Source: Acididesulfobacillus acetoxydans (GTDB lineage: Bacteria > Bacillota > Desulfitobacteriia > Desulfitobacteriales > Desulfitobacteriaceae). From it: a stretch of DNA of 64,000 bases. Below, in pieces: positions 5,251 through 53,679 of the stretch. The stretch's first letter is position 1. Each line of letters begins with the position of its first letter. The notes under the pieces were generated by a model that saw nothing but the letters and a program-made list of their open reading frames with translations, made no database searches and was not told the DNA's origin. Location of the stretch: assembly GCF_902729405.1 (NCBI RefSeq), contig NZ_LR746496.1, positions 1,178,001 to 1,242,000 of the forward strand, written 5' to 3'. The position numbers were made by a program, and so were the translations under genes.

Positions 5251-5298
5251 GAGCGGGTAAGGTCAAGAGCGGGTAAGGTCAAGAGCCGGTAAGGTAAG
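5251..5298 (+). repeat. Three 16-base tandem repeats
   Basis: GAGCGGGTAAGGTCAA occurs at 5251-5266 and 5267-5282, with a third variant copy at 5283-5298. The last copy supplies the AAGGTAAGGAG that probably acts as ribosome site for the cytochrome b6 gene, so repeat expansion reaches into the translation signal. Confidence 0.85.
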
Positions 5299-5313
5299 GA
5301 GTCGGCACAGCAG

Positions 5314-5940: not shown

Positions 5941-6177
5941 GGGAGGAGAAGGGCGTTTCCGTTCCCGGGCAGACAACATTATTCAGGAAAAGGCTCGGTA
6001 TATTCAGAGAAAATGTCAGGAATTTGGCTGTTATGTGATGAAGATGGCTGTTCTCGGCTGGAGGAAGACGGGTGTTCCTAAGGGGTGGGGAGTGTCGATG
6101 CAGGAGGAAGTGTCCGTGCAGGAGGGCGTCCGGCCAAAGGGAAGCGGGAGGACGTGTTCACGTGGGAGGGAGTGCCC

Positions 6178-6552: not shown

Positions 6553-6561
6553 GGGATAGCA

Positions 6562-25925: not shown

Positions 25926-28900
25926 ATGGGTATGGGCCGTCAGGCCGGAGCAAAAGAAGAAGGAAGATTTATTCGGGCCTTACCGGGGAGAATTCGCCTC
26001 AGCGTACAAGGGCTGAAAGGCAATTTGGCTATGGTTCGGCTCTTGCGGGCAACCCTCAGTATTTGCCCTGGGGTTGAGGAGATTTCCCCCAGTGCCCATA
26101 CGGGCCGGATGCTTATTCTTTTCAATGAGCAAGAGATCGGTCTCGGTGATCTTCTGGCCAGGATCGAGAAGCTGGAGACGGCACCCTCGGAAATCCGGCG
26201 GGACGACGGCCCGGAGCGGGCGGCTCACCGAGAGAAGAGGGTCATAGGGGCTCCTTGGGATCAAGCGGCTGCCGCCGCGGGGCCGGCAGTCGCAGACCGG
26301 GGCGGGATGGGACCGGCTTGGGGCGGCTTTACGGGGGTCGGCCGTTATCCCGCCCTGGTGCTCTCCGCCGCCGGGTTGGGGATTCTGGCTGTAAAGCGGG
26401 TGTTTATGGGCAAATCCGCTTGGGCCGAGGCCCCCGCTTTGTTCTGCTTGGCGGCTTTGGTGGCTGTTTTGCGCGACTATCCGCCGGCGCGCAGGCAGGT
26501 GGAAGATTTACCGTCCCTTCCCGGAAAGGGCCGGCACGACGCTTCGGGCCGAGGTCCATGGTTCCGTACGCCCCTGTCTGGGGCAGAAGGTTGGCGCGGC
26601 GAGGCTATGCTGGGAGCGGTGACTCTTGGTTTAGCCTTGGTACGGGAAAATCTTGTGGTTCTGGCGGGGATCGCGCTCATCCAGTACCTCCACCGGCAAA
26701 TTGAGCAAAGCGGAAGAGCCGGGTTCCCGGAGGAGTGGCAGAACAGCCCGGAAAAAGCTTACGCCAGCCGGGTCGGAAAACCTCATCTTGCCCTGGCCGC
26801 TGGGGCCGTGGTGTTGAGCGGACAACCGTCACGAGGGTTGGGTGTACTGCTTGCGGGGAGTCCGCGGGTGGCCACGGTTCCCGCCCGCTATGCCTGGGAA
26901 CAGGCGCAGTGGGCGGCCGAAGAAAAAGGTTGCTTTATTCCGGAGCACATTTCACTGGCGCGGCTTGCTCAGGTTAAACAAGTTGTGCTGACAGACAGCG
27001 CACTCCTGCGGCAAGGCAGCGAGGAAGAAATACGCTGTTCGGCTGATCCGGAAAATGAGGACGAGGTGTGGCGTTTGGCGGCATCCTTAATGAAGCGGGT
27101 GCAGCATCCCTGGCTGGAGAAGGTTTTAACCAAGGCAGCCGGGTCCGGAGGCACGCTCCGGACCGCTTTCAAGGTCGAACGCGGGGTAAACGGAGTGAAA
27201 GGAACAATTCGGGGATCTGAAGTCCTCCTTGGCAGCCTGGAATACTTGCTGGAAAATGGGGTGGATTGTGATTCCCACCTGGTGGAGATTCGAAGGCTTC
27301 AACGCGCAGGGCATCAAACCTTATGCCTGGCCAGGGATTTTAGGTATCTTGGCGTTTTAATGAGGTACAAAGGCGGAACTCCGACGGAACTTGCCCAAGG
27401 GTTAAAGTACTGGCGGAGTATAGGGATCAAGACCGGGGTTCTAAATAACACTTCGGGTCTCAGTATAGGGGAGTTGAGAGAGTGCGGAATCGACGAAATT
27501 CTGTCCGGCACAACCTCTGATAATTGGGAGATGTTGGCAGTCGCGCGCGAACGGGGTGAAGAAGTGCTCTTCGTCGGGCGGGACGAGGAAGGGTTCTTGG
27601 CGGGGGTGCCCTTGGCAGCGCCGGAGAAAATTACGGCCCTTAACCGTTCTCTAGCCTGCGCCAGGTCCATGAAACCAGTTATCGCTCGGCATTTTCGCGT
27701 GGCTAAGTTCTGGAATTATGCGGGGATGGGTTTGGCAGCTTTAGGCGTAATAACGGCACCGATGGCCAAGCTTGTGACAGATGCGTTGACACTGGCCCTT
27801 ATGGCCGAAAGTAAGCGCGCCGGCCAAATTGTGAGTGGAGAGAGCGTCCCGCTGAGAGATGTGGAAGAGTCCGAAGCGGCCCGGCTGCCCAAGAGTCAGG
27901 CGGAGCCGTCGGGCTGGGTGAGCGGGACTTCCGGGGGACCGGCGGGCCGACTGGGGACGCCGAACACGGCCCAAGCGTTAGATGGGGCCGTACTTTCCGG
28001 TGCGGCTGGGTCGTCAGGCAAGAACGGACCGTCAGGCACGGCCGTACTGTCAGACGCTGCCGGGCCGCCGGGCGCGGCAGGATCGCCACACGCGGCCGGA
28101 GTGTTAGGTGCGGCTGGACAGCCGGACAGGGCCGGAGCGCCGCCCACGGCAGGAGCGTCGGACATGACCGGACCGTCAGACACGGCGGAGCGCTGGTATT
28201 GCCTGAGTACGGATGAAGTCTTGCACCGTTTTGCGGTCGCCGAAGACCGAGGTCTGTCTCCCCAACAGGTGGAAGTGCTGCGTAAGCAGTACGGGCTGAA
28301 TCACCTGGAGCCTAAGAAACCCAGACCGTGGCTCGTATCCTATCTGGCCCAGTTTACCGAGTTCACCACCCTGATCGTTTTGGGGACATCGGTCATGGCT
28401 CTGATTACGGGGGCCGTCTTCGACGGTTTGGCTATGGGGGCAATTCTGCTGGCCAACGCAGCCATTGGCACCCTGCAGGAGCGTAAGGCGGAGCGCGTTA
28501 TCGAGGCGCTCAACCAATTTCAGCCCCCTTCCTGCCGGGTTGTGCGCGAGGGGCAGGAGGTGGAAGTCGTAGGCACCGAATTAGTGCCCGGGGATGTCGT
28601 TAGGTTGGAAGCCGGTGACCGGGTGCCCGCTGATTTGCGTCTTCTTCAGTCCTGGAATTTGGAAGTCAATGAATCGGCACTTTCGGGGGAATCTTTGCCG
28701 GTGGGCAAGAACCCCCAAGGCCTTTCGAATGATTGTCCGCTGGCGGAACAGACGAACATGTTATTCATGGGTACGGACGTCACGCGGGGCAAGGGAAGCG
28801 GAGTAGTCGTCGGAACGGGAATGCAAACAGAAATCGGACATCTTATGTCTTTGATGAAAAACCAGGATGTCGTGAGCACTCCTTTGCACGAAAAAGTGAC

Positions 28901-30959
28901 GGGTATTAGTAAAATGTTTGTCAAGGGAGCCGCCCTAGCCGGTACACTGGTCTTTGTGGTGGGGCTCCTGCGGGGGAGGCCCCTGACAGAGATGATTACG
29001 ACTTCGATTACCCTGGCCGCTTCGGCTGTTCCGGAAGGGCTGCCGGTGACCATCACCATTGCGCTCAGTGCCGGAATTTACCGGATGGCCAAGCATCATG
29101 CCCTCATCCGCAAACTCTCCGCTCTGGAGACGCTGGGCAGGACCACGGTCATCTGCACCGATAAGACGGGAACCCTGACCAAGAATGAAATGACGGTTAC
29201 CCGCATCGTGACGGCTAACCGTACTTGGAAAGTGACCGGAGAAGGGTATGAGCCGAGCGGAGAGATCGTGCGCTTGCCTCTGTCGGAGCCGACCCAGTCA
29301 CGCAGTCCGGATCTTGAACGCCTGACTACCATTGCCTTGCTTTGCAATAACAGCCGGTTGGAACGGGAAGCGGACAGATGGGTCGTCAGAGGGGATCCGA
29401 CGGAAGGGGCACTGCTCACCCTGGCCGCCAAAGCGGGGGTGCGCGTGGAAACCATGGAACACTGGCACCGGGTTCACGAGGTACCGTTTGATTCCAAGTC
29501 GGGTACCATGAGTGTAGTCTGCCGGGACACGCGTCAGGACACGGATTGTTTTGTGTTCTGCAAAGGTTCTGTGGAGACCGTGCTCCAACGTTGCAGTCAT
29601 TACCAAGAGGATGGGGTCATCTACCCCATGACCGAAGCCAAAAAAGAACTCATTTACAGGCAGAATGAAAAGCTGGCCAGTGATGCCCTGCGGGTTTTGG
29701 GCTTCGCCTACTGCCCCACGGACTGGGTGGACACGCCAGAGCCCGGCCCCGCGCTCGACGACGAGCTGATCTATGTCGGATTGGTTGGCATGATGGACCC
29801 TGCCAAGCCGGAAGTGGAGGCGAGCATTCGCGAGGCTTATGCTCTCGGAGTTAAACCCGTGATGATTACGGGGGACCACCCGGTGACCGCCTTGGCTATC
29901 GCCAGGGAATTGGGCCTGGGCGCGGACGGCAGCCGGGTCATGACCGGTCAGGAACTGGATGGACTGTCCGAGCGGGACCTGGCCAAAGCGGTGGAACAGG
30001 TGGACATCTTTGCCCGGGTAACTCCCGAACATAAGCTAAGGATCGTGAAAGCTTATCAGAAAGCGGGTCACATTGTGGCCATGACGGGAGACGGAGTGAA
30101 TGATACTCCTGCCATCAAACAGTCCAATACCGGCATCGCCATGGGCGGTACGGGGACGGAAGTTACCAAGGCTACGGCTGACATGGTGCTAAAGAAAGAT
30201 CACTTCGGCGCCATTTTGGAAGGAGTGAAAGAAGGACGAACGATTATTGCCAACATGCGCAGAGCCATTGGCTGTCTGCTGACCGGGAACTTGGCAGAGA
30301 TTCTGGTCACGGCCACGGCGGTCATCGCTGGCTTGCCCATGCCTCTGGTACCGATTCAGATTTTGCTCATGAATCTCCTCACCGACGCGATTCCCGCCAT
30401 GATTCTGGCGGTGAACCCCGGGAATACGAAGCAGTACACAAAACGCCAGGATATTGTCGACAGGAATCTCTACCGCAAAGTCGTAACGCGGGGGCTCCTC
30501 CTGGGGGCCGGTGCTCTGGGCCTGTTCGGGCTGACTCTGAGCGCCGGGGCACCGTTGGCCGTTGCCCAGACTGTGGCCTTCACCACTTTAGTATTGGGAC
30601 AGTTGGGCCAGACCTTTTCCTGGCATCAGGAGGGTTCCTCCGGCGGGGTGCGGGAGTCGGTCAAGGACCGTTATTTGGTCGGGAGCTTGGCCGCTTCCTT
30701 CTTGGCTTTGGTTGGCACCATTTATATCCCGCCTGTGGCCGGTTTCTTCCACACCGCCCCCTTGCAGATCCGGCACTGGTTCCTGATTTTCCTCTTGGCG
30801 GGAACCGTATCCCTCTTGGCCCAGCCGTTTCTCAGTCTCATGGCCAGAGCGGAAGAGGAGCCGTCCGGCGGCCAAGCCGGGGGTGAGCTCCGTGTGCTGC
30901 CTAAAGTCGGGAGAGGAGATTTGAAGGGCGGGATTCCCACCTTGATGGCCGGAAAGTAA
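25926..30959 (+). CDS. Giant tandem P-type ATPase (HMA2 domain, degenerate ATPase half, Ca2+-type ATPase)
   Basis: About 1677 residues. An N-terminal heavy-metal-associated-like domain (RFIRALPGRIRLSV) lacks the CxxC pair. A first P-ATPase-like half follows, in which the phosphorylation loop has decayed to LTDSALLRQG around Asp357, without DKTGT. A Gly/Ala/Pro/Ser-rich linker follows, then a full P2-type pump: SGES, PEGLP in helix M4, DKTGTLT with Asp1079 as the phosphorylated residue, MTGDGVNDTPA and the C-terminal helices. Size and plan resemble mycobacterial CtpH/CtpI. Start ATG 25926 has GGGAGG at five bases; in-frame starts at 25899 and 25911 are possible. The ion is unknown; the pump half resembles calcium/manganese ATPases. 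Confidence 0.88.
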   Translation: MGMGRQAGAKEEGRFIRALPGRIRLSVQGLKGNLAMVRLLRATLSICPGVEEISPSAHTGRMLILFNEQEIGLGDLLARIEKLETAPSEIRRDDGPERAAHREKRVIGAPWDQAAAAAGPAVADRGGMGPAWGGFTGVGRYPALVLSAAGLGILAVKRVFMGKSAWAEAPALFCLAALVAVLRDYPPARRQVEDLPSLPGKGRHDASGRGPWFRTPLSGAEGWRGEAMLGAVTLGLALVRENLVVLAGIALIQYLHRQIEQSGRAGFPEEWQNSPEKAYASRVGKPHLALAAGAVVLSGQPSRGLGVLLAGSPRVATVPARYAWEQAQWAAEEKGCFIPEHISLARLAQVKQVVLTDSALLRQGSEEEIRCSADPENEDEVWRLAASLMKRVQHPWLEKVLTKAAGSGGTLRTAFKVERGVNGVKGTIRGSEVLLGSLEYLLENGVDCDSHLVEIRRLQRAGHQTLCLARDFRYLGVLMRYKGGTPTELAQGLKYWRSIGIKTGVLNNTSGLSIGELRECGIDEILSGTTSDNWEMLAVARERGEEVLFVGRDEEGFLAGVPLAAPEKITALNRSLACARSMKPVIARHFRVAKFWNYAGMGLAALGVITAPMAKLVTDALTLALMAESKRAGQIVSGESVPLRDVEESEAARLPKSQAEPSGWVSGTSGGPAGRLGTPNTAQALDGAVLSGAAGSSGKNGPSGTAVLSDAAGPPGAAGSPHAAGVLGAAGQPDRAGAPPTAGASDMTGPSDTAERWYCLSTDEVLHRFAVAEDRGLSPQQVEVLRKQYGLNHLEPKKPRPWLVSYLAQFTEFTTLIVLGTSVMALITGAVFDGLAMGAILLANAAIGTLQERKAERVIEALNQFQPPSCRVVREGQEVEVVGTELVPGDVVRLEAGDRVPADLRLLQSWNLEVNESALSGESLPVGKNPQGLSNDCPLAEQTNMLFMGTDVTRGKGSGVVVGTGMQTEIGHLMSLMKNQDVVSTPLHEKVTGISKMFVKGAALAGTLVFVVGLLRGRPLTEMITTSITLAASAVPEGLPVTITIALSAGIYRMAKHHALIRKLSALETLGRTTVICTDKTGTLTKNEMTVTRIVTANRTWKVTGEGYEPSGEIVRLPLSEPTQSRSPDLERLTTIALLCNNSRLEREADRWVVRGDPTEGALLTLAAKAGVRVETMEHWHRVHEVPFDSKSGTMSVVCRDTRQDTDCFVFCKGSVETVLQRCSHYQEDGVIYPMTEAKKELIYRQNEKLASDALRVLGFAYCPTDWVDTPEPGPALDDELIYVGLVGMMDPAKPEVEASIREAYALGVKPVMITGDHPVTALAIARELGLGADGSRVMTGQELDGLSERDLAKAVEQVDIFARVTPEHKLRIVKAYQKAGHIVAMTGDGVNDTPAIKQSNTGIAMGGTGTEVTKATADMVLKKDHFGAILEGVKEGRTIIANMRRAIGCLLTGNLAEILVTATAVIAGLPMPLVPIQILLMNLLTDAIPAMILAVNPGNTKQYTKRQDIVDRNLYRKVVTRGLLLGAGALGLFGLTLSAGAPLAVAQTVAFTTLVLGQLGQTFSWHQEGSSGGVRESVKDRYLVGSLAASFLALVGTIYIPPVAGFFHTAPLQIRHWFLIFLLAGTVSLLAQPFLSLMARAEEEPSGGQAGGELRVLPKVGRGDLKGGIPTLMAGK

Positions 30960-31088
30960 GCCCATGGGTGAATCCAGAGAAGGAGGAGCAAGGTGCGGGA
31001 CAGAGTTTGAGGGAGGCGGAAGTGCGACAGAAATTTAAAGGAAGGTAAGTGTAAACGAGATTTAGAGGAGGGTATAAGTGTGAAGGAA

Positions 31089-31133
31089 GTGAACTCGTTC
31101 GGCTTAAGCTGAACATCGAGTCTCACGGTTGGA
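31089..31133 (-). mobile_element. IS200/IS605-type right-end relic, copy E (internally deleted)
   Basis: On the minus strand it reads CCAACCGTGAGACTC, then directly GATGTTCAGCTTAAGC and CGAACGAGTTCACT. The first part equals the beginning of copy B and the second the end of copies A and B, so the two middle hairpins have been lost. Confidence 0.6.
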
Positions 31134-31152
31134 TCAAAGGGGGTCTTCTGCT

Positions 31153-31404
31153 GTGTTGAAAGAGCTGGATAAAACGGATTTGATTACGGGGACAGCCCTG
31201 GTCCTGGTAGCCCCCGCCCTGTTCCCGGTACTTAGGGATGCCCTCAAACCGCTCGTCCTTCTGGGTCTGCGGGGGGCGGTCGGGGTGGTCGGTACGGCCA
31301 GGACGACCTTCGAACTGGCCAAGGAAGAAGTAGAGGATATCGTAGCCGAAGCGCAATTTGAACGTCTGAAAAAGGAAATGGATCGGGAGATTGGCGCCCG
31401 GTGA
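31153..31404 (+). CDS. DUF5132/PacL-like small membrane protein
   Basis: An 83-residue protein: a hydrophobic N-terminal helix (LITGTALVLVAPALF), a second weakly hydrophobic stretch, and an acidic helical tail (AKEEVEDIVAEAQFERLKKEMD). Mycobacterial PacL proteins (DUF1490) have the same plan, including the E/A-rich tail, and work as scaffolds for the P-type ATPases beside which they are encoded. Here it directly follows a P-type ATPase gene. GTG 31153 is chosen, nine bases after AAAGGGGG. The homology is a resemblance of form, not proven. Confidence 0.7.
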   Translation: MLKELDKTDLITGTALVLVAPALFPVLRDALKPLVLLGLRGAVGVVGTARTTFELAKEEVEDIVAEAQFERLKKEMDREIGAR

Positions 31405-31454
31405 AGCATCGCGGTTTGAACTGAGTACAAAATAAAGTTGAGAGAAGGGATGCT

Positions 31455-31685
31455 GTGGAAGAGCTGCCGGGTATCGAGGAGCATTTAAAAGAAGCGCTTT
31501 CGCATCTGGAGCAAGCGATTGAGCAAAGCGTGCGGACGATCGTCCGGCAACCGGCTGCGCAGAAGGAGCTTGCCCGAGCGTGGGAACTTTTCTTGGGGGA
31601 CTTTTTGGGCAGTGTGCGGGAAAAAGGAAAGCAATACGAGGTGAATCTTTTCAACTTGATCTCTTTTCCGCGTTTGCGCCGTTAG
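31455..31685 (+). CDS. Small helical protein, 76 residues
   Basis: I do not recognise a family. The protein is predicted to be almost all helix (HLKEALSHLEQAIEQSVRTIV), without a membrane segment. Start GTG, with AGAGAAGGGA before it. It lies between the PacL-like and glycine-zipper genes in the same direction with short gaps, so it belongs to the ATPase-associated unit. Confidence 0.6.
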   Translation: MEELPGIEEHLKEALSHLEQAIEQSVRTIVRQPAAQKELARAWELFLGDFLGSVREKGKQYEVNLFNLISFPRLRR

Positions 31686-31710
31686 TTGGAAGTGAAAGGG
31701 GAAATCGACT

Positions 31711-32055
31711 GTGCTGAGTAAGGGGACATTGTGGGCCGGGGTCATTTCCGCGGGTTTCGCTCTGTGGCGGGATGCCGGGGCACATCGGTCCGGCCGTCTG
31801 GATGACAGGGAATATGCCGTACACACGACTTCTGACCTGACTTCAGCCTTAGGTTTAATGGCAGGGTTTGAGTATGGGGCCTGCCTTGGCTCGGCCATTG
31901 TGCCGGGGGCCGGAGCCGTCATCGGAACGATTCTGGGAGGAATTGTGGGGGACCGCCTGGGCCAAGCCCTGGGGCAGGGCGCGGGCTCGGCTCTCTTTCC
32001 GGAGCGAAGTCCTCAGGGAATCTCCGAACGTAACCCTATGCAAAACCACACGTAA
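31711..32055 (+). CDS. Small glycine-zipper membrane protein
   Basis: A 114-residue protein with a central glycine-zipper region (PGAGAVIGTILGGIVGDRLGQALGQGAG) able to insert into or pack at membranes, preceded by a weak hydrophobic N terminus. Family not recognised, although glycine-zipper proteins of this size often accompany DUF5132 and HMA2-ATPase genes. GTG start behind GAAAGGGG. Last gene before the Pho-box promoter. Confidence 0.6.
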   Translation: MLSKGTLWAGVISAGFALWRDAGAHRSGRLDDREYAVHTTSDLTSALGLMAGFEYGACLGSAIVPGAGAVIGTILGGIVGDRLGQALGQGAGSALFPERSPQGISERNPMQNHT

Positions 32056-32126
32056 TCGGTGCACCACCGGACGTAATCCAGACTAAAGCTGGCTGGAAAA
32101 AATTGATCGGGTGAAAATCTCACTTG

Positions 32127-32180
32127 TTGACCTAAGTTTTACATAGAATTAACAACGCCGGTTCCGGATTGATTTAAAAT
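32127..32180 (+). promoter_or_regulatory. Second Pho box and promoter
   Basis: TTGACC (32127), TTTACA (32138) and TTAACA (32149) are spaced by exactly five bases. The -10 TAAAAT (32175-32180) lies 20 bases after the last repeat, the same distance as in the pstS promoter at 24059/24085. The gene start is 31 bases downstream. Confidence 0.75.
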
Positions 32181-32211
32181 ACTGTTAGAAATCTGGTGCC
32201 GGGGTGAAAAG

Positions 32212-32982
32212 ATGTTTAGAGAAGAGATATTCAAAAAAGAAATTCTTCTTTATGCGCACGAAATCCGCCGTCAGCGGGCGGAATGGGAGACTGCCGAGGC
32301 GGTCGACGAAACGCTTTGTTTCTTAACAGATGAGATTGGGCGATGGTTTAAGGCCTATAGCAGGCACGAAGCTACGGGATTCCGTTTCGATCTTACCGCC
32401 TTGACGGAAGAATTGGCACATTTGCGTCAGACCTTGCAGGCGGGTTTGCTGGAACGGATCGGGCAGCGTTTCGGTTTGGACGGGGAACAAGCCATGAGCC
32501 TCCTGGCACAGGAGCACTTTGCATCGGATCTCTGGCAAGAACAGACGGTGGAAGATTTTCTTCGGGATGTGTCAATCCTTGTCCGGGGCTGGCTGGCGGA
32601 AAAAGAGGGAAGTGTTTTTTGGGCGGGGCAGGCGGAATATTGGAGCCGCAGAGTGTGGGGAGAAGCGGCACATCGCCTGATTCCCAATCCCCTGTTGGCG
32701 GCACTGGCCGAACAGGCGGGGGCGGGGGAAAAAATGGTCGCCTCCTTGGGTGTCGATTCGCGGCGGGAGAAAGAAGAATTGACCAGGGGGATGGAACGGC
32801 GTCGAGAGGGTGCTCTCTTGGCCCTGGAAGAACGACTGAAACGCGAGGCGAGCCGCCGGGCGGCCCAGATCCTTTATTCCCTGCATGACAGAGTTATTGA
32901 GCGCAGATTTGTGGCCAAAACGGAAGTTCTGGAGGCAACTCTGTCTGCATACGAATCCGAGTCACTGGCCCAAGAAGCCTAA
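32212..32982 (+). CDS. Hypothetical helical protein under Pho-type promoter
   Basis: A 256-residue protein, rich in Glu, Arg and Leu, nearly all alpha-helical and soluble, with a long charged coiled-coil-like C-terminal third (RREKEELTRGMERRREGALLALEERL...). No family recognised. The Pho box suggests induction by phosphate starvation together with pstS. It sits between two P-type ATPase genes and ends before a terminator, so it may be a separate unit. Confidence 0.7.
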   Translation: MFREEIFKKEILLYAHEIRRQRAEWETAEAVDETLCFLTDEIGRWFKAYSRHEATGFRFDLTALTEELAHLRQTLQAGLLERIGQRFGLDGEQAMSLLAQEHFASDLWQEQTVEDFLRDVSILVRGWLAEKEGSVFWAGQAEYWSRRVWGEAAHRLIPNPLLAALAEQAGAGEKMVASLGVDSRREKEELTRGMERRREGALLALEERLKREASRRAAQILYSLHDRVIERRFVAKTEVLEATLSAYESESLAQEA

Positions 32983-33118
32983 TGATACGATTTTCGGCAA
33001 AACGGCGACAGCCTGCCACAAAGACCCGGAGCCTGTTATACCAGATAGGCCTGTGCGACATAAGCCGGTGATAAGGGGAAATGATCCTGACGGAAATGAT
33101 CCGGATGGAGAGGGAATG

Positions 33119-33145
33119 ACTGCCTGTCGGGCAGTTATTTTTATT
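33119..33145 (+). terminator. Terminator after helical protein gene
   Basis: ACTGCC (33119-33124) pairs with GGCAGT (33130-33135), followed by TATTTTTATT. The rest of the 32983-33320 spacer shows no gene, only short repeats of GAAATGATCC. Confidence 0.7.
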
Positions 33146-33320
33146 CCGGAGTTGGCAGAACCTTCCGCACGGCGATTTACATATTCTCGTCTGTGACTGG
33201 AGAATCTGTTAAGGACGGAAAATATCCTATCCGTTTTCTGACCCGTCAATTTCCGACGCGTCCAACGAATTGACCGCGAACAATCAAGCACAGTTGAAAA
33301 TTCCGATCTTGGGGGTGCGT

Positions 33321-35723
33321 ATGGCGACTCGGAGAAATAAAACGGTTCACTCCCTTCCCGGGAGAATCCGGCTCAGAGTGCCCGGCTTGAGAGGAGATCC
33401 CGTGTTGGCGGAGGCGATCGCCAGTCATTTCGCAGGTTCTCCGGGAATTTCGGCGGCTCGGGTCAATGTCCATACGGGGACTGTTTTGGTTGAGTATAGT
33501 CCGCAGTACTGGGATGAGCCGGGGGTAATTCTGAGTGTCGAAGAAACAAGGAAGGGGCGATTTTCCGGACCCGAGCAAGAAACAGACCGCGGCGTTCGGG
33601 AAGCGGTCCGGACATCATCCGCTCCAAGAGAACACAGAATGCTTGAGCCGGGCCGGCGGGGCGGTGACCGGCACGGTGAGCGAAAGCGGCGCAGCGGCTG
33701 GGAACGGCGTCTGGCGGACGAAGAGAGAGCGGGGCGGGAGCGTGCTCCGGAAGGGGTAAAGGCTCCCGAGACGGGGCTGCCGGAAAGACTGGACCTCAGG
33801 GGAGTCTTGACAAGTCCCAGTGTGACCCGGCGTTCATTAAAGACGGTTTTCACCGGGTTTGCCCTCGGGACGCTTTTGCTTAAGCGTCAAGTTATCGGCC
33901 GCTCGCCCCTGGCGGGTTCGGAGGCGGTCGCGGACGGAGCCACTGTCGTAGGTTTGATTGCGGCCTATCCGCTTTTCCTCTGGGGGTTAAAACATCCGCA
34001 ACAAGCAAAACGCTTGCCTTATGATGCGATTATTAATGCGCTCTCATTCACTTTGCTTGTGCTTCAGGAAAGTGTCGGGGGTCTGCTTTTGACTTTGCTT
34101 GTGCACCTTTCCAAGCTTTCCATGGGGATAGACCAGGCCAAGGCCCGGCAGATTATCCGTCAGGTGGGAATCTTGCCGCAAAAGTCCTGGTTGATCGCCG
34201 CAGGGGGCGAAGTACCGGTGCCGACCGGAAGCCTGGCTGCGGGTGACCTGATTGCGGTGCATCAGGGTGAGACTGTCCCTGTGGACGGCCGGGTCGTGGG
34301 CGGAGAGGCAGACGTAGGGGAGAGCCAATTAACCGGTATTCCCCGGCCCGTTTGGAAAGGGCCGGAATACCCAGTGCTCGCGGGATCGGAGCTGCTGCAA
34401 GGAAATCTGCGGATCCGGGTGGAGCGGACCGGGCGGTCGACGCGGATCAGGGCTATGATCCGCTCTGCGGCACGGCGCAAAGGGTTGGCAGACCGGGAGT
34501 ACCGAGAGCGCATGGACCGAATGGTCCTGTTCTCGCTCCTACTGGCCGGGGGTATTCTCCTTCTCACTCGGGATACCAAACGGACCTTGGCCGTCCTCTT
34601 TTCCGGAGCTCCCGCGGCGGCGGGTTTAGCCCTGCCTACGGCGGCCGGAGTGGCGGTCGGCCGGGCTCTGGATCGCGGAATATATGTGAGAGATGAAAAG
34701 CACTTACTGGCGGCGGCCGACATCAATGCCTTGGTGCTTGACAAAACCGGGACGCTCACCGATGAAAAGGCGGAGATCCGCGAGATCACGGTGATTGGCA
34801 GAGAGTATACGAAAGCGGGGATCATTCGTCTGGCAGCCGCGGCCGAAAGGAGGGCAGACCATCCCGTGGCCCGGGCTTTGCGTGCCCAAGCCGTGATCTT
34901 GCGTGCTGCCCCCATGCCTGAACCCGAGAAGAGTGAGGAAATTTCCGGTTTCGGGGTCAAGGCCCGCTTCAAAGACGAAGAAGTCTTGATCGGGAACTTC
35001 CGCTTTATGGAGAGGGAGAAAGTGGAACTGGCCGAGGTTGAAGCCAAAGCTCGACGCCATCAGCATTTGGGACTTGATCCCGTTTTCATAGCGGTTAACG
35101 GCCAAGTTCGCGCCCTGCTGGGCGTGCATGAGGAAATCTCGCCCCAAAGCGCCCAGCTGATCACGGCCCTGCGCGCCGGCGGAATCAGGAAGATTGTCCT
35201 GGTGACAAGGGATACGAGGGAGGCGGCAAAACGGGCAGCGAGTGAGCTGGGAATCACTGAATACCATGGGGAATTGACTCCGGAAGACAAGGCCGCTGTG
35301 GTCCGCTCCCTCAAAGGAGAGGGGTTCAAAGTCGCGGTGGCGGGAGACGGGCTGGATGATGCTCTGGCCATGGCGGAAGCCGAGTTGGGAATTGCCGTCG
35401 GTTGCATGGGAGTGGATTCCGCCGCCAAGGTGGCGGGGATCGTGATCCCACAGCGCGAACCGCAAAGAGTGGCGGAAGCGATTTACCTTGGACAACGGCT
35501 GAAGGAGCGGATCAATCAAAATTTAAGTATTGCTTTCGGACTCAATGTCGTGGGTTTGGGATTGGGTGCCGCAGGCGTTCTTACGATTGTAGGCGCTTCG
35601 ATATTGGGGAATATCGGGATCATAGCCGTTATCGCCAACACCTACGGTAAAACTTGGCTGGAGGAAGCGTTCGGTGGGGCCGGGGAGGTCAGGCACGTTT
35701 CTTCGGCATGGGTGGACTCATGA
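33321..35723 (+). CDS. P1B-like P-type ATPase with HMA2 domain and non-canonical metal site
   Basis: An 800-residue pump. An HMA2-like domain (SLPGRIRLRVPGL, residues 8-75) lacks CxxC, and a charged Arg-rich linker follows. The phosphorylation motif DKTGTLT (Asp474), the nucleotide-site HP (ADHPVARAL) and the hinge GDGLDDALAM are present, so catalysis is likely. The membrane motif CPC of heavy-metal pumps is replaced by APA (SGAPAAAGLALP, around 428-437), and the actuator TGES reads TGIP. Those changes would alter metal choice and dephosphorylation. ATG 33321 follows GGGGGTG. It resembles the CtpC/HMA2 group linked to PacL-like and DUF5132 proteins. Confidence 0.85.
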   Translation: MATRRNKTVHSLPGRIRLRVPGLRGDPVLAEAIASHFAGSPGISAARVNVHTGTVLVEYSPQYWDEPGVILSVEETRKGRFSGPEQETDRGVREAVRTSSAPREHRMLEPGRRGGDRHGERKRRSGWERRLADEERAGRERAPEGVKAPETGLPERLDLRGVLTSPSVTRRSLKTVFTGFALGTLLLKRQVIGRSPLAGSEAVADGATVVGLIAAYPLFLWGLKHPQQAKRLPYDAIINALSFTLLVLQESVGGLLLTLLVHLSKLSMGIDQAKARQIIRQVGILPQKSWLIAAGGEVPVPTGSLAAGDLIAVHQGETVPVDGRVVGGEADVGESQLTGIPRPVWKGPEYPVLAGSELLQGNLRIRVERTGRSTRIRAMIRSAARRKGLADREYRERMDRMVLFSLLLAGGILLLTRDTKRTLAVLFSGAPAAAGLALPTAAGVAVGRALDRGIYVRDEKHLLAAADINALVLDKTGTLTDEKAEIREITVIGREYTKAGIIRLAAAAERRADHPVARALRAQAVILRAAPMPEPEKSEEISGFGVKARFKDEEVLIGNFRFMEREKVELAEVEAKARRHQHLGLDPVFIAVNGQVRALLGVHEEISPQSAQLITALRAGGIRKIVLVTRDTREAAKRAASELGITEYHGELTPEDKAAVVRSLKGEGFKVAVAGDGLDDALAMAEAELGIAVGCMGVDSAAKVAGIVIPQREPQRVAEAIYLGQRLKERINQNLSIAFGLNVVGLGLGAAGVLTIVGASILGNIGIIAVIANTYGKTWLEEAFGGAGEVRHVSSAWVDS

Positions 35724-35842
35724 ACGGAGCCGAGTTCTCCGGTCTGCACCGGGAAGTGACCTGAATGCGTCCGAGAAAAGCGACAGCCGGGATGACACAC
35801 ACAAGTTATTCCGTTCAGGCTCTTACTCCGTGAACAAGCCCA

Positions 35843-35880
35843 AACAAGCTCCGGGGCATCTCCGGAGCTTGTTCTTACTT
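35843..35880. terminator. Bidirectional terminator between convergent genes
   Basis: AACAAGCTCCGG (35843-35854) and CCGGAGCTTGTT (35862-35873) form a perfect 12-base stem followed by CTTACTT. It serves the ATPase at left and possibly the leftward gene at right. Confidence 0.75.
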
Positions 35881-35975
35881 AATCCCAACAGTTTTGTGCG
35901 AAGTCACAAGGGTTGCGGTACTCTCAGCTTTCCGCTTAAGATGACGGGAAATTGCGGTCAAGAGAATCCTGGCTT

Positions 35976-36386
35976 TCAAGGGTTTGCCGGGTGTACCGTG
36001 TCATGCTGCTTATCTGATGTTTTGCCGGCACTCGCGCCGGCCGCTCCTCCCAGGCCGCCGCCCACGGCTGCGCCGACGGGACCGGCCATTCCGCCGATAG
36101 TGGCTCCCACCGCGCCGCCGGCACCTGCGCCCAGGATTGTATTCATGTCCGGCCTGGAGAGTCCCTTCTGTTCTTGGGCTTTGGCGACGACATCGTCCCA
36201 TCCTTCTTTGACATTATTGGCCAAGGCTGCGCCTCCTTGTGCCAGGGACATCGCTCCTTTGACCGTGGTCACCGCAACTCCCTTAACGACGTTTTTAAGG
36301 ACGGGAGCCAGAACTACGATGGCGGTTCCGGCCACAACCACACCTAATAAGGAGGATTCCCCCAAAAACTCGGGTATACCTTTCAC
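35976..36386 (-). CDS. DUF5132-like membrane protein with glycine-zipper tail
   Basis: A 136-residue protein. An N-terminal hydrophobic segment (LLGVVVAGTAIVVLAPVL) is followed by a helix and then by a strikingly regular Gly/Ala zipper (GGAVGATIGGMAGPVGAAVGG). The N-terminal part fits DUF5132, found with HMA2-type P-ATPases. GTG 36386 lies seven bases after GGAGGAGGG; the longer open frame to 36515 lacks a ribosome site. Convergent with the P-type ATPase gene. It may be a second pump partner. Confidence 0.7.
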   Translation of the reverse strand: MKGIPEFLGESSLLGVVVAGTAIVVLAPVLKNVVKGVAVTTVKGAMSLAQGGAALANNVKEGWDDVVAKAQEQKGLSRPDMNTILGAGAGGAVGATIGGMAGPVGAAVGGGLGGAAGASAGKTSDKQHDTVHPANP

Positions 36387-36525: not shown

Positions 36526-37959
36526 TCAGTGGTTCAGAAGGAGGAACAGGCGATGAAAGAGAGGCAGAAGCCAAGGTTGATAGATTAGATCCAAAAAGAA
36601 AAAAAGGAACAAACCGGCAAAACCACCTACAAGGGAGCCGTTGATCCGGATCCACTGCAGGTCATCCCCGGCTTTGCCCTCAATGAAAGAATTCAGGTCG
36701 GTTTCGCTCAAGGACTCAAGTGTGTTCCTGGCGATACTGCCGATCAGACGGTGCTCGGCGGCCGCCAGCCGGCCCAAGGCGGAACGGATATAGGCATTCA
36801 GGCGGTTTTGTAAAGACTGATCCTTGAGAAAGTCCTGCCACAGTCGATTGGCTCCCTCACTGAGCCAGGTGAAAAGCAGGGAATCATTTTCCGGCATAAC
36901 CTTACCCTCCGTGATGCTCCGCGCAGGGTTCTCCGCGGTATGTATCGGGTTCGGCCGGGGCGCGGGGTCTTCGGCAACCGTCGATGCTGAAGTTTCCGGG
37001 GCCGCGGGTGGGGCTGTCGGCGCCTTGGGCGGGCCCATGACCTGGCTGAGGACCGTGGTCAAAAATCGGCACAAGGTGTCCTCCCAAGGCAGCTGTAAGA
37101 GCACCTCCGTTTTCCACTGTTCCAGTGTTTGGTCCAGGGGTTGATCATCCGCTTCAGTGGCTAAGAGCTCAAGGATGCGCTGCCGCAAGGGATGGCTGGG
37201 GTTTTGCAGTTCCCGGAGGGCCAGACCCAACTGTTTTTGTAAGACGGTCGCGGCTTCCCTCAGGTTGAGCCCGTCGATTTTTTGAATGAAACCGAGCAGG
37301 TAGCGATTGAAGGGGGAATCGGTCTCCCGGGCTTCTTTTTGGGCCAAAAGAAGCCGGTAAAGACTTTCTCTCACCGGAGGTCCGTTCACGATCCCATGCA
37401 GTTGGTCAAGAGCATAATCGAGGCCGGCGCCGGTCGGGAATATCCGGCGCAGTCTATGCAGTCCCTGGTCCAGAGAAGCGCTGCCGATTTCTTGCTTGAT
37501 TTTGGCAGCGATAAACGGAGCACTCTGGGCGGGGATCTTATCCTTTCTTTCGTCCAAATAATTGAAGAAAAGCCGGGTCAGAGCGGCCACGCCACCATTT
37601 TGTTCGACCCAGGCTCTGAGCCCATCCGTAAAAGAGACTTGGGCAAGTTTTTCTTGTATGAGTTCCAGGCTGAGCAGATCGTTTTCGACCATCTGGCTTA
37701 CCGAGAGAATGACTTTATCCCGGTTTCTGGGGATGAGAGCGGTGTGGAAAGGCCAGCCCAAAGGGCGTTGAAAAAGTGCCGTCACAGCGAACCAATCGGC
37801 GATTCCGCCGACCAGAGCAGCCTCGAGTACGAAATTTAAAAGCCGCAGGGAGAAGAGCCCGGGCTCGTTGAGTTTAAAAACGGTGGAGAGCACAAAAAGG
37901 GAAAATACGACGGCAAGGGTAACATTGGCTTTATGGCGGTAGTTCATCTTGTTCACCAC
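36526..37959 (-). CDS. DUF445 family membrane protein, copy 1
   Basis: A 477-residue protein with two membrane helices near the N terminus, the DUF445 hallmark GGIADWFAVTALFQRPLG, a long helical middle domain, and one C-terminal helix pair (GGFAGLFLFFFLDLIYQPW). A Pro/Ala-rich insertion lies around residues 315-345. Its start overlaps the end of the second DUF445 gene by seven bases, so the two are translationally coupled. The family is widespread and of unknown function; a role at the envelope is assumed. Confidence 0.85.
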   Translation of the reverse strand: MVNKMNYRHKANVTLAVVFSLFVLSTVFKLNEPGLFSLRLLNFVLEAALVGGIADWFAVTALFQRPLGWPFHTALIPRNRDKVILSVSQMVENDLLSLELIQEKLAQVSFTDGLRAWVEQNGGVAALTRLFFNYLDERKDKIPAQSAPFIAAKIKQEIGSASLDQGLHRLRRIFPTGAGLDYALDQLHGIVNGPPVRESLYRLLLAQKEARETDSPFNRYLLGFIQKIDGLNLREAATVLQKQLGLALRELQNPSHPLRQRILELLATEADDQPLDQTLEQWKTEVLLQLPWEDTLCRFLTTVLSQVMGPPKAPTAPPAAPETSASTVAEDPAPRPNPIHTAENPARSITEGKVMPENDSLLFTWLSEGANRLWQDFLKDQSLQNRLNAYIRSALGRLAAAEHRLIGSIARNTLESLSETDLNSFIEGKAGDDLQWIRINGSLVGGFAGLFLFFFLDLIYQPWLLPLFHRLFLLLNH

Positions 37960-39284
37960 TTTTGCTGGATTAGAAAGTTGACCAAATAGATGAGCGATCC
38001 GGCCAGACTGCCGACTACGGAACCATTGATCCGGATCATTTGCAGGTCATTGCCCGCCCGGGATTCTATGAGTTCCACCAGCCGTTCGTTGCTCAGGGGT
38101 TCCAGGTTTTGTCTCACCATGCGGCCGATGATGGCATGCTGGGTGTCAATGAAGCGGAGGAGGGAATCTTTCAGCCAACCGTCGAGGTTGGCCTCCCACT
38201 CAGGGTTTCTTCGGGTGATGACGATTTCCCGGATTATGTCCTCGATCAAGAGTTTGAGGGTATCACCGTCCGTCATGGAAGTTGCGATTTTGGCGGAAGA
38301 CACTTTGTCATTTCCCGGCCCTTGGGTCCCGAATGGAGTGTCCGGTTGCGGGGGAGTCCCGTTGGAGCTGAGCAGTTTATTCCCGATGATGTGGCGCACA
38401 AGCTCGAAGAGGCTTTGGCTCAAATTGATCCTGGCGGCCCGGGAACTGACCAGTTCGCCGGCATATTCTCTCACCCAAGACATGAGGAGTTCCTGCGCTT
38501 CGGGGCCCGTGAGGAAAAGGCGCAGTTGCTCGAGAATATCAGCCGCCAGTTCTCCGGCTGAAGGGAGGAAAGTGTCAACCAGTTTGCGGGCGGTATTTCC
38601 AGCTTCATAGGTTTGGTAGGCTTTCTGTAACCACAGGGCCAAGGCTTGCTTCAACTGGGGCGAGTCGACAAGGGTAAGCAGTGAACGGTTGGCGAATGTT
38701 GCCATGAGTCCAACGTAGCCTTTTTTTTCCGATAAGTTCAGGGCCTCAACTAAGAGCGGCGTGAGGTCTTCGAAGAGGAACTCTTCACATGTTAACCCTT
38801 CCAGAAAGTTAATCAAGGCCTGTGGCTCAGTTTGACCCGTTAGGTCCCGGGCCAGGTCGGCGAGGAAGCTGCTCGATTCCGCCAGAATTTGGGGCTGAGA
38901 CAGATAATCGAGAAGAAAGGCGGCGCTGTTGTAATGGGTGAGGCGTTCTTTCAGGGCTTTTTTGCTTAGGAGATCATTTTCCACCATATCCGCCAAGGCC
39001 TCAAAAAGCCTTTCACGATTGCGGGGAATGATCTCGGTGCGCAAAACCCGGCCCGGGCGAATCCCGAGCGGGCGGCGAAAAAGAGCGGTGACCGCGAACC
39101 AGTCGGCGAGGCCTGCCAGCATCCCCGCGCGGCAGGCCGTGGATATAAGTCCGCCCCAGAAATCGGCCCGAAAAGGATAACTAACCAGGAAGCCGACGCT
39201 CACTAGGGCCAAGGTCAGAGTGGCCCAATGGCTGTAGTTCCTGGATATTTCAGTCTGTACTTGGTCATCTGTCGGATGATTCAT
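37953..39284 (-). CDS. DUF445 family membrane protein, copy 2
   Basis: A 443-residue paralog of the following gene with the same motif (GLADWFAVTALFRRPLGI), N-terminal helices, helical stalk and C-terminal helix pair (GSLAGSLIYLVNFLIQ). It is the first gene of the leftward pair. Paired DUF445 genes suggest a hetero-oligomer. Upstream (39285-39663) I see a terminator of the next leftward gene and no clear promoter. Confidence 0.85.
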   Translation of the reverse strand: MNHPTDDQVQTEISRNYSHWATLTLALVSVGFLVSYPFRADFWGGLISTACRAGMLAGLADWFAVTALFRRPLGIRPGRVLRTEIIPRNRERLFEALADMVENDLLSKKALKERLTHYNSAAFLLDYLSQPQILAESSSFLADLARDLTGQTEPQALINFLEGLTCEEFLFEDLTPLLVEALNLSEKKGYVGLMATFANRSLLTLVDSPQLKQALALWLQKAYQTYEAGNTARKLVDTFLPSAGELAADILEQLRLFLTGPEAQELLMSWVREYAGELVSSRAARINLSQSLFELVRHIIGNKLLSSNGTPPQPDTPFGTQGPGNDKVSSAKIATSMTDGDTLKLLIEDIIREIVITRRNPEWEANLDGWLKDSLLRFIDTQHAIIGRMVRQNLEPLSNERLVELIESRAGNDLQMIRINGSVVGSLAGSLIYLVNFLIQQKW

Positions 39285-50124: not shown

Positions 50125-50457
50125 TTGGATGAGCCGGAGGGTTCCTGCCCGGTCTGCCATGAGGGCGAAGGGGACGGTGAACGCAGGAGTCACCATGATG
50201 AGAGGACGATCCGGGAACTGGTGAATCGCATGAACCGGATCGAGGGCCAGGTGCGCGGAATCAGGGGTATGATTGAGCGGCACGTCTACTGTGATGATGT
50301 TCTTAATCAAATTGCCTCGGCCCAGGCGGCTTTGCACGGGGTTGCCAAATTACTGCTGGAAAAGCACATGAAGTCTTGTGTTAAGGAACAACTGCGCTCC
50401 GGTGATGACGAGGTCGTGGATGAGGTCTTGAAGACGATATTCAGGCTTATAAAGTAG
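50125..50457 (+). CDS. csoR: CsoR copper-sensing repressor
   Basis: A 110-residue helical protein. The copper ligands Cys56, His81 and Cys85 keep the exact CsoR spacing (25 and 4), unlike the protein at 9392. An N-terminal extension SCPVCHEGEGDGERRSHH adds possible metal ligands. Start TTG 50125 has AAAGGTGG upstream; ATG is not available in frame. It precedes copA-copZ in the same direction with an operator upstream, so copper should induce the whole unit. Confidence 0.92.
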   Translation: MDEPEGSCPVCHEGEGDGERRSHHDERTIRELVNRMNRIEGQVRGIRGMIERHVYCDDVLNQIASAQAALHGVAKLLLEKHMKSCVKEQLRSGDDEVVDEVLKTIFRLIK

Positions 50458-50775
50458 ACAAGCTGAAAGACGCGGGAAAGGGTTGAGACATACGGGGAGA
50501 GAAGGTTGAGAAGCGGGGGAAGGGTTGAGACAGGCAAGAAGAGAAGGTTCAGAGAAGAGCAGGGAGAAAGGCGTAAAGAAGGGGTAATGTGGCAAGAAGA
50601 AAGCGCTTATGAAAAGAGAAAAGCTTAAGAGAAATGGAGACAAGCACTAGCTAGGAGAAATAGAGAAAAGCATTAGGAGAAACAGAGAAAAGCGTCAAGA
50701 AATCAAGATAAAGTTTTGGGGTATGATAAAGAAAACATTGAGGAAGGACCTGGAAGGATTAAGGAGGTGAGGAGC
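50458..50775 (+). repeat. Purine-rich spacer with degenerate repeats
   Basis: GGAAGGGTTGAGACA is present twice (about 50477 and 50519), and AGAGAAAAGC-like words recur several times to 50695. The strand is almost all purine. No open frame is convincing. It separates csoR from copA. Confidence 0.6.
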
Positions 50776-53679
50776 ATGTCGGAGCCGGCGGAAAAAATTA
50801 CGCACAGTCTTAGTCCTATAGATACCGAGATTCCGGTCTACGGGATGATGTGTGAGCATTGTGTGCGGCGCGTGACCAAAGCGTTGGCTGACCTGCCGGG
50901 TGTGAACAATGTGGAGGTTTCTTTGGCGGGAAAGAAGGCCAATTTTACCTATGAGCCCGGTCGGGTGAACCCGGAAGAGGCAGCCAAGGCAATTGCGGCG
51001 GCCGGCTATTCAGTCAGTCCTCTCCCGGAGGAGGAAGAAACGGAAACCGGGCAACCGGCAGAGGCGGCTGAGGCGGGGTCGAGCGAGGGATCGGCAGCGG
51101 GGCCGACCAAGGGGCCGGAAACGGGGCCTGCCGAGGGACCGGCGGCGGGATCGGCAAAGGGAAGGGCTGGGCTTGGGGGCGCGGAAAGCCCCGGCCAAGA
51201 GCCGGCGCAAGCGCAACCCGCTCCGGCCCTGATCCTGCCGGGGGTTCTCGGGGGGCAAGATCCGTCTGCGGCGGCCCGTGAGACCAAGAAACAGTTTAAA
51301 GTGAGCGGGATGACCTGCGCCAACTGTGCCTTAACCATTGAAAAAGGGGTAGGCAAAATGCCGGGGGTGAAGTCAGCTGCCGTCAATTTCGCTTCGGAAA
51401 AGCTCACGTTAGAACTGGACCCCGCGCTCATCTCGGAAGAAGAGATCCTGAACAAAATCAAGGATCTCGGTTATGGGGCCCGGGGCGAAGAGGGTGCGGG
51501 CGGAAAAGAACAATTTAAGGTGAGCGGGATGACCTGTGCCAACTGTGCTTTGACGATCGAGAAGAAATTGAAAGGCACGGCGGGCGTGCGCCAAGCGGCG
51601 GTCAATTTTGCCAATGAAACGGTCACGGTTGAATATGACCCGGGTCAACTCAGCCGGGCGGACATTTTTGAGCGGGTACGGGATGCCGGTTACATTCCCC
51701 TGGAGAACAAAGAGGAGGCGGAGGAAGACCGGACGGCGATCAGGCAGCGGAACTGGCTCATTTTCAGCGCAATCCTTTCCCTGCCCTTGATGCCGATGAT
51801 GTGGTTTTTGCCCATGACCCCGGCTGTCACCTACACGGCCTTTGTCATGGCGACAGTTGTCCAGTTCACGGCCGGCTGGACATTTTACCGGGGCGCTTAC
51901 CATGCCCTGAAGAACCGATCGGCCAACATGGATGTCCTGGTCGCTATGGGCATCACGGCTGCTTACGGCTATAGTGTACTGACCGCTTTTCCGCAGGTGT
52001 TTTTCTCCGGGCCGACGTTCTTTGACGCTTCGGCCGTACTGATTACCTTCGTTCGCTTCGGGAAGTATCTGGAGGCTAAGGCGAAGGGTCGCGCCGGGCA
52101 GGCGCTCAAACGCCTGCTGGAACTTCAGGCCGATCGTGCCCGCCTTTGGCTCAATGGGGAAGAGAAAGAAATTGCCGCTTCCGAACTGCGGGTCGGCGAC
52201 CTGGTCGTGGTCAAACCGGGTGAGAAAATACCGTTGGACGGAGAAATCGTGGAAGGTCAAAGCAGTGTAGACGAGTCCATGCTAACCGGAGAATCCCTGC
52301 CGGTGGAAAGGGGACCGGGAGAGACGGTGGTCGGGGCGACGATTAACCAGTCCGGTCAGATTAAGGTTCGTATCGCCAAGACCGGCCAAGACACGGTTCT
52401 GGCAGGAATTGTAAGAATGGTGGAGGAGGCCCAGGGGGTTAAACCGCCGATTCAGCGGCTGGCGGATACGATTTCCAATTATTTTGTCCCGACTGTGGTT
52501 TCCCTGGCGATCATCACCTTCCTAATCTGGTATCTGCTTATCCATCAGTCCTTTGTCTTTGCTTTCACTGCGGCCATCGCTGTTTTAGTCATCGCTTGTC
52601 CCTGCGCTCTGGGGCTGGCGACACCGACCGCCATCATGGTGGGCAGCGGAGTGGGTCTGAACCGCGGTATTCTCTTCAAATCCGCCGCCGTTTTGGAACG
52701 TATATCGGGTCTTCAGGCCATTGGCTTTGACAAGACCGGAACTTTGACCAAAGGGAGGCCGGAGGTTACCGATATTGTTCCCGCTGACGGCCTCGGCAGC
52801 CGGGAGCTTTTGCTGATTGCCGCGGCCGGGGAAAATCCGTCCGTTCATCCTCTGGCTCAGGCGGTAGCGGCCAGGGCCCGGCGGGAAGGGATCGAGCTTG
52901 AACAGGTGGGGAACTATCATGAAGAAAGCGGTCAGGGTATCACTTGCTCCTACCGGGGACAGCTCCTCTTGATCGGCAATCGGAAGCTTATGGAGAACCA
53001 CCGCATTGATGTTCTTCCCCTCGAAGAAGATTTTGTGCGTCTGGCGCAGCAAGGCAAGACCACGATGTATGTCGCCTTGGCCGGCCGGGGGATCGGGATC
53101 ATGGCTCTGGCGGATGTACTGAAAGAGAGCAGTCAGACGGCGATCCGACGCTTGCAGGCTTTGGGACTGAAGACCTTTATGGTCACGGGTGACAACCAAA
53201 AAGTCGCTCAGGTCGTCGCCCGGGAAGTGGGTATGGACGAGGTGGTGGCCGAAATCCTGCCCCAGGACAAGATCCAAATCGTCAAGAAATACCAGGATCA
53301 AGGTCTGAAAGTGGCCATGGTCGGAGACGGGATCAATGACGCCCCGGCTTTGGCCCAGGCTGACATCGGTATCGCCATCGGTTCCGGCACGGATGTGGCT
53401 AAAGAAACCGGGGATGTGATCCTCGTGCGCAACGATCTGTTGGATGTTGAGCGGGCCATCCGTCTGGGTAGGAAGACCTTGAATAAAATTAAGCAGAACC
53501 TTTTTTGGGCGCTTATCTATAACACGATTGGGATTCCGGTGGCGGCGGGTGTGCTCTATCCCTTGACCGGCAGGCTCTTGCCCCCGGAATGGGCGGGGTT
53601 GGCCATGGCTTTTTCCTCGGTCTCGGTGGTCACAAATTCTTTGCTTTTGCGCCGCTACGGCAGGAAATTGATTGATTAG
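50776..53679 (+). CDS. copA: Copper-exporting P1B-type ATPase with three HMA domains
   Basis: A 967-residue pump. HMA1 is a variant with GMMCEHC (Cys26/Cys29); HMA2 and HMA3 have GMTCANC (Cys181/184 and Cys254/257). A Gly/Ala/Pro/Glu-rich linker of about 85 residues separates HMA1 from HMA2. Then come eight helices with CPC ([12 protein letters not shown]), [13 protein letters not shown], the HP motif and [12 protein letters not shown]. It exports Cu(I) using ATP. HMA2 and HMA3 are nearly identical at the start, a recent internal duplication. ATG 50776 has AAGGAGGTG. Operon csoR-copA-copZ. Confidence 0.96.

Follow-up and report, generated by a model that had tools for sequence, protein, structure and literature searches.

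P-type ATPases and PacL-like small membrane proteins in a conserved gene cluster of Acididesulfobacillus acetoxydans

Background

In mycobacteria, the small proteins PacL1 and PacL2 (DUF1490) stabilise the P-type ATPases CtpC and CtpG in membrane clusters (PMC9374683, PMC13043812); for PacL2, the binding site on CtpG is the metal-binding domain (PMC13043812). PacL-like proteins of the DUF6110 family, encoded together with P1B6-ATPases, were proposed for Firmicutes in 2022 (PMC9374683). Another described group comprises the double-length FUPA24 ATPases CtpH and CtpI (PMC3573892, PMC10654040); according to a review, whether these two are functional pumps is not known (PMC10654040).

The window analysed here is a 64,000-nucleotide stretch of the A. 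acetoxydans genome (contig NZ_LR746496.1, positions 1,178,001 to 1,242,000). A sequence-only reading of it had noted two P-type ATPases accompanied by four very short membrane proteins, at least one of them built like a PacL scaffold, and suggested that metal-efflux platforms with small partners extend to Firmicutes. Such an extension is not new, given the 2022 proposal of DUF6110 proteins there; the part that holds is that the family described below is tied to HMA_2 ATPases of Bacillota.

Results

A conserved eight-gene unit

The region between 25299 and 36386 contains eight genes, including two P-type ATPases and several small membrane proteins (Table 1). The gene order is the same in three genomes, the other two being Peptococcaceae bacterium CEB3, the closest named relative found, and Desulfosporosinus sp. 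BG (locus L100). Gene-by-gene identity to the window unit is 79-95% in CEB3 (89% for ATPase2) and mostly 43-70% in BG, where the copy of the 256-aa protein is just 23% identical over part of its length. Both outermost small genes are retained: the 25299 protein has an ortholog at the equivalent place in CEB3 (92% identity) and BG, and the 35976 protein is 67-95% identical in BG and CEB3. The genes flanking the unit in L100 differ on both sides, so that it is the eight-gene unit, rather than the whole region, that is conserved. The dN/dS values of the small ORFs in comparison with CEB3 (0.10-0.27) indicate that these are real genes, and plausible ribosome-binding sites are seen by direct reading at the starts 25926, 31153 and 33321. 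The unit is a conserved eight-gene cluster of acid-loving sulfate reducers. Two adjoining membrane proteins, DUF445-like by first-pass naming, follow it in the window (36526-39284); this pair is also found in CEB3 and is absent from that place in Desulfosporosinus BG.

Table 1. Genes of the conserved unit (positions in the window)
Feature	Coordinates	Strand	Basis or remark
PacL-like single-TM protein, 100 aa	25299..25601	-	divergently oriented relative to ATPase1; leave-window-out profile
ATPase1, about 1677 aa	25926..30959	+	Pfam/NCBIfam: HMA_2, degenerate P1B, intact P2A
DUF5132/PacL-like single-TM protein, 83 aa	31153..31404	+	PF17195 above cut-off
76-aa soluble protein, predicted helical hairpin (s77 family)	31455..31685	+	family A2/A6, AlphaFold
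Gly-zipper protein, 114 aa	31711..32055	+	PF13488, E 9e-4
256-aa all-helical protein (h250 family)	32212..32982	+	homologs near HMA_2 ATPases, AlphaFold
ATPase2, 800 aa: HMA_2 and degenerate-motif P1B-type ATPase	33321..35723	+	alignment to LpCopA and family
136-aa fusion: PacL-like TM core and Gly-zipper domain	35976..36386	-	Pfam, leave-window-out profile

Three of the four small membrane proteins belong to one family

An alignment was compiled from 27 TM proteins encoded in HMA_2 neighbourhoods of a sample of 299 Bacillota genomes. Leave-one-out profiles recover every one of the 27 members (weakest E 7e-5), and a profile constructed without the three window sequences identifies, in a set of 4,184 ORFs, the proteins 31153 (E 4.3e-18), 35976 (E 3.2e-10) and 25299 (E 2.7e-5). 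These three of the four proteins originally listed are PacL-like single-helix proteins. The fourth, 31711, is a Gly-zipper protein that contains no PacL-like core and does not match the family profile; its assignment as PacL-like, and with it a single family for all four, was rejected. Among the loci examined, CEB3 and Desulfosporosinus BG alone have an ortholog of 31711.

In Pfam terms, 31153 is a DUF5132 protein (PF17195, 29.8 bits vs the gathering cut-off of 25), the PacL-like half of 35976 matches DUF5132 below the cut-off (E 0.04, 14.4 bits), its second half being a Gly-zipper, and 25299 has no Pfam match, DUF5132 included. Across the family, 11 of the 27 proteins have a DUF5132 match (E up to 0.5), and a few show weak matches to DUF1490, DUF6110 or YtxH. 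DUF6110 (PF19605) matches none of the window proteins and one relative (L046) with E 0.006. Profile searches of PDB sequences detected nothing for the PacL-like proteins. The protein 31153 contains a TM helix (residues 9-27) followed by an Ala/Glu-rich cytoplasmic helix with AKEEVEDIVAEA, ending in EEVEDIVAEA; this plan is weaker in 35976, and the helix is short in 25299.

One family member outside the window (L051, 8904-9440, minus strand) begins with a stretch resembling rubrerythrin/ferritin (Pfam Rubrerythrin, E 6.5e-4), which suggests a link to iron or another metal; other long members contain similar '[DN]P..R..L' helices upstream of the TM core.

Relationship to PacL and DUF6110 proteins

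For comparison, real DUF1490 proteins were drawn from plasmids of Pseudonocardia, Rhodococcus and Mycobacterium. When the DUF1490 profile is run against the 4,184 Bacillota ORFs, ATPase loci supply each of the top seven matches, every one a PacL-like or DUF6110 protein, with 31153 in seventh place at E of only 0.19; reciprocally, the best matches of the Bacillota family profile in 1,001 ORFs of plasmid loci are DUF1490 proteins. An hhalign comparison of the two families gives P 2e-5 and a score of 30.3, whereas column shuffles in which TM and cytoplasmic parts are kept apart give a mean of 9.4 and a maximum of 15.5, with 0 of 200 reaching 30.3 (0 of 20 in a further shuffle control). The profile comparison of DUF5132 with DUF1490 proposed as a check thus came out positive: the reciprocal matches and the alignment score beyond the shuffles indicate that the DUF5132-like single-TM proteins share ancestry with DUF1490 (PacL) and DUF6110 proteins.

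The pumps are related as well. The nearest plasmid relatives of the HMA_2 P1B ATPase of L053 are Actinobacterial, 38-40% identical over 97% of the length, and are encoded directly 3' of 'DUF1490 family' genes. A tblastn search of plasmids with a short PacL-like protein retrieved none even at E 10, probably because of low-complexity filtering.

Despite this homology, the window proteins lack the motifs that define PacL itself. The DUF1490 model PF07371 matches none of them at E up to 1, and the best score among their relatives (L052:11703) is 20.4 bits vs the cut-off of 28.4. None of the three has a GxxG within the TM helix (the one GxxG of 31153, at residue 37, lies beyond it), and the C-terminal His/Asp metal-binding motif is absent, the tails being DREIGAR, NISPS and TSDKQHDTVHPANP. 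The suggested PacL plan therefore stands for the arrangement of TM and cytoplasmic helices and for homology to DUF1490, and fails for the metal-binding tail and the GxxG of the TM helix.

Compared with PacL1-CtpC and PacL2-CtpG of M. tuberculosis, the likeness includes a neighbouring P-type ATPase gene and a single-TM protein whose amphipathic helix is cytoplasmic and terminates in a D-V/I-V-A-E-A-like motif; in contrast to those pairs, the window cluster has several PacL-like proteins along with helical and Gly-zipper partners, and its intact pump is of the P2A type, the P1B modules apparently being dead. The DUF6110 systems, which belong mainly to Firmicutes, are similar in that PacL-like proteins without the metal-binding motif are encoded beside Firmicutes P-type ATPases, and the family profile also recovers DUF6110 proteins (L083, L084); they differ in the ATPases, in Pfam assignment (DUF5132 rather than DUF6110 in the window) and in having, as a rule, one small protein per locus (PMC13043812).

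Linkage to HMA_2 ATPases

Gene linkage, whose absence had been named as counting against the proposal, is strongly conserved. In a set of 20 neighbourhoods with a true HMA_2 ATPase, picked from the 299 genomes without regard to small genes, all 20 clusters contain a PacL-like or DUF6110-like neighbour, DUF6110-like in one case (G207/L084). In the opposite direction, 44 of 59 matches to the PacL-like family lie within 12 kb of an HMA_2 gene (about 1% expected), and so do 17 of the 32 matches outside the profile training set; phylogenetic independence cannot be claimed for these samples, and some of the non-training matches are additional copies from clusters already represented in the training set. 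By Pfam's DUF5132 model, which is independent of this profile, the match lies beside an HMA_2 ATPase in five of the seven other Bacillota genomes that have one. The remaining 15 of the 59 matches, mostly weak, are found away from HMA_2 ATPases, in loci without any P-type ATPase except for those of the DUF6110 type; in L083, the DUF6110 protein adjoins an ATPase with the HN motif. Throughout Bacillota, DUF5132-like proteins and HMA_2 P-type ATPases are genetically linked.

ATPase1

The sequence-only reading was accurate on the ATPases themselves, as regards both their positions and their CxxC-less HMA_2 domains. The HMA_2 domain (PF19991) is N-terminal in both (E 1.2e-8 in ATPase2; E 1.9e-6, slightly below the gathering cut-off, in ATPase1) and of the 'PGRIR' kind, CxxC is absent from both entire sequences, and the 4.52 Mb genome yielded no other HMA_2 protein.

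In ATPase1, the HMA_2 domain and a degenerate P1B module without DKTG or TGE extend to about residue 715 and are followed by a P2A module with intact motifs (SGES, ICTDKTGTLT, PEGLP, GDGVND). Among solved structures, the nearest to this C-terminal half are SPCA1 and LMCA1 (E about 1e-152), and a by-eye alignment indicates that the residues of the SERCA Ca2+ site (E309, N768, E771, N796, T799, D800) are kept; the NCBIfam equivalog cut-offs are not reached (614.6 of 798.3 bits). The C-terminal half is apparently a working P2A pump, of Ca/Mn type to judge from its sequence. It resembles SPCA1 (ATP2C1) and Listeria LMCA1 in catalytic motifs and Ca2+ site residues, and differs from them in sharing its chain with HMA_2 and a dead P1B module and in having PacL-like partners.

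The N-terminal P1B half of such ATPases matches TIGR01525 with E of 5e-113 in L052, 6e-72 in L065, 3e-27 in L048, 8e-15 in Desulfosporosinus BG and 2e-8 in the window, so the long N-terminal segment of the double-length ATPases is best read from this series as a P1B pump in stages of decay. By length and layout alone, the FUPA24 proteins CtpH and CtpI are similar (about 1,550-1,690 aa, with type II pump motifs in the C-terminal half only and a long N-terminal segment); the difference is that the N-terminal segment here is recognisable as a decaying P1B ATPase. A concrete origin can thus be offered for double-length P-type ATPases, and if CtpH and CtpI share this layout, the question of their pump function becomes testable. 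No full double-length relative was found on any plasmid searched. In L052, an HMA_2 segment (6629-7015) and the double-length ATPase (1980-6695) are in overlapping frames, possibly owing to a frameshift or an assembly error.

ATPase2 and degenerate modules elsewhere

Aligned to LpCopA and its family, ATPase2 has TGI for TGE, GAPA for CPC and GDGLDD for GDGxND. The CEB3 copy shows the same losses, with DKTGTLT kept as in the window, and in Desulfosporosinus BG DKTGTLT is lost too (DKVPSLT, plus SGK). With dN/dS in comparison with CEB3 of 0.21 (0.28 for the dead half of ATPase1, 0.18 for its pump half), ATPase2 is a degenerate P1B pump retained under purifying selection, and it looks catalytically dead. 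Metal efflux by two pumps, as first suggested, does not follow from the sequence, because the sole intact module is then the P2A one. Nor does ATPase2 carry the P1B6-like (CtpC type) signature: it has GAPA and GN, not the CPC of TM4 and the HN of the penultimate TM region seen in relatives from L048, L051, L053, L056 and L059.

Among related clusters, one intact pump occurs together with a separate degenerate P1B copy in L046/L047, L052, L055 and L056/L057, an intact pump with a fused degenerate P1B module in L048, L053, L061 and L065, and intact pumps without a dead module in L051, L058-L060 and L062-L064. Stand-alone proteins of 590-630 aa, consisting of HMA_2 and a partial P-type ATPase without DKTGT (L049, 6126-7904; L054, 6746-8644; L058, 6880-8718), are by their sequences separate decayed pump proteins.

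Helical partner proteins

The 76-aa (31455) and 256-aa (32212) proteins, absent from the sequence-only reading, are further conserved partners. The former is 33% identical to its homolog in L048 and is modelled by AlphaFold with pLDDT 92.5; 16 of the 23 matches to its family are no more than 12 kb from HMA_2 genes (about 1% expected), as are 9 of 16 outside the training set, in samples that again are phylogenetically non-independent. The 256-aa protein is modelled as long helices (pLDDT 83), and its family is represented in at least ten clusters, with homologs beside HMA_2 ATPases in L048, L051, L052, L053, L056, L057, L058, L059, L061 and L100. Foldseek searches with both models returned no significant match, and a profile search of PDB sequences with the 76-aa family gave chance helical matches only.

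In L066 (7510-8162) and L067 (7697-8331), 76-aa-family proteins are paired with YtxH-like TM proteins, with no P-type ATPase nearby. Lone members away from pumps (L079, 7605-7835, after dnaG-rpoD; L080, 7806-8033; L082, 7419-7649) indicate wider use of this family.

Discussion

Taken together, these observations are best compatible with the cluster encoding a PacL-type membrane assembly around a P-type pump, to which we assign a probability of about 60%. This best-supported reading joins the observed homology and gene linkage to contact, clustering, a substrate and a direction of transport that we infer. The PacL-like proteins would self-associate via their TM helices and contact the HMA_2 domains, in a manner similar to that of PacL2 at the metal-binding domain of CtpG, keeping the pump or pumps in a membrane patch; the dead P1B modules might serve as non-catalytic docking or regulatory subunits and the two helical proteins as cytoplasmic adaptors, and the platform would export Ca2+/Mn2+, or a similar divalent ion, from the cytosol. 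The missing PacL motifs, the 15 unlinked matches among 59 and the several clusters without a dead module count against it. Pump assembly of the mycobacterial kind probably exists, in altered form, across Firmicutes.

The main rival is a ferrosome-like organelle, in which PacL-like or DUF6110-like and helical proteins would shape or coat a compartment that the pump fills with metal, without export. Fez clusters likewise combine a small membrane protein with a P-type ATPase for a metal-handling membrane structure, and FezB is a P1B6-ATPase. Ferrosome formation in C. difficile needs the membrane protein FezA and the transporter FezB (PMC12574912), and this is the parallel that makes such an organelle the chief competitor; the encoding of DUF6110 proteins with P1B6-ATPases (PMC9374683), the DUF6110 protein beside the HN-motif ATPase of L083, the rubrerythrin-like N-terminus in L051 and the long helices of the 256-aa protein point in the same direction. 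However, FezC, a DUF4405-like cytochrome, is not seen in these clusters, the intact pump of the window is P2A rather than P1B6, and a membrane-shaping role is a guess given the lack of significant Foldseek matches. We consider a ferrosome-like store unlikely and favour an efflux platform.

The small TM proteins could instead be general envelope-stress or YtxH-like proteins that are co-regulated with the pumps without touching them. Single-TM proteins with an amphipathic helix are simple and common, four of the 27 family members match YtxH weakly, and the unlinked quarter of the matches would be expected; yet such a protein is present in every one of the 20 HMA_2 ATPase clusters, the unlinked loci, DUF6110-type ones aside, are devoid of P-type ATPases, and the specific relationship to DUF1490, a family of pump-binding proteins, exceeds shuffled controls, so this explanation is rather improbable. 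Still harder to accept is that ATPase2 is an active pump with unusual motifs and that the cluster exports two different metals: the DKTGTLT of the window and CEB3 copies, the nucleotide-domain HP of the window copy and the purifying selection are compatible with activity, but the dephosphorylation Glu, both TM4 cysteines and the Asn of GDGxND are lost, and the Desulfosporosinus copy is without DKTGT as well.

A broader version of the PacL-type assembly is more tentative, and we regard it as possible though doubtful: a widespread, undescribed membrane machine of Bacillota, in which PacL-like proteins, 76-aa hairpin proteins and 250-aa helical proteins would arrange a pump of the P2A (Ca/Mn-type) or P1B kind, with dead P1B modules, fused or separate, as structural subunits, possibly around a metal-storing compartment rather than in an efflux patch. 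No mention of DUF5132, of a P2A partner, of dead pump modules or of either helical partner family was seen in the literature searched. DUF5132, previously unannotated, is likely to form, within the PacL/DUF6110 scaffold superfamily, a third branch with a fixed partner set, and clustering of pumps by small proteins therefore becomes testable outside mycobacteria.

Other P-type ATPases

The window also encodes a CsoR-like protein (50125) followed by a 987-aa P-type ATPase (50716; the pair spans 50125-53679) with the CxxC HMA motif MMCEHCV. Named from its sequence, the latter is apparently an ordinary copper exporter, a canonical CopA, and its presence in the same genome marks the HMA_2 ATPases as a distinct type. 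Another multi-part HMA_2 arrangement in Bacilli is found on a Priestia megaterium plasmid (L088, 3147-6659), where a cation P-type ATPase lies among three small proteins that are named 'HMA2 domain-containing' and flank it. On an Enterobacter hormaechei plasmid (L089, 3214-5761), an operon of AntR, a 62-aa hypothetical protein that belongs to no Pfam family and a P-type ATPase, for which a link to the antimonite proteins AntA/AntC was considered and not found in the literature searched, represents another small-protein/pump pair on mobile DNA.
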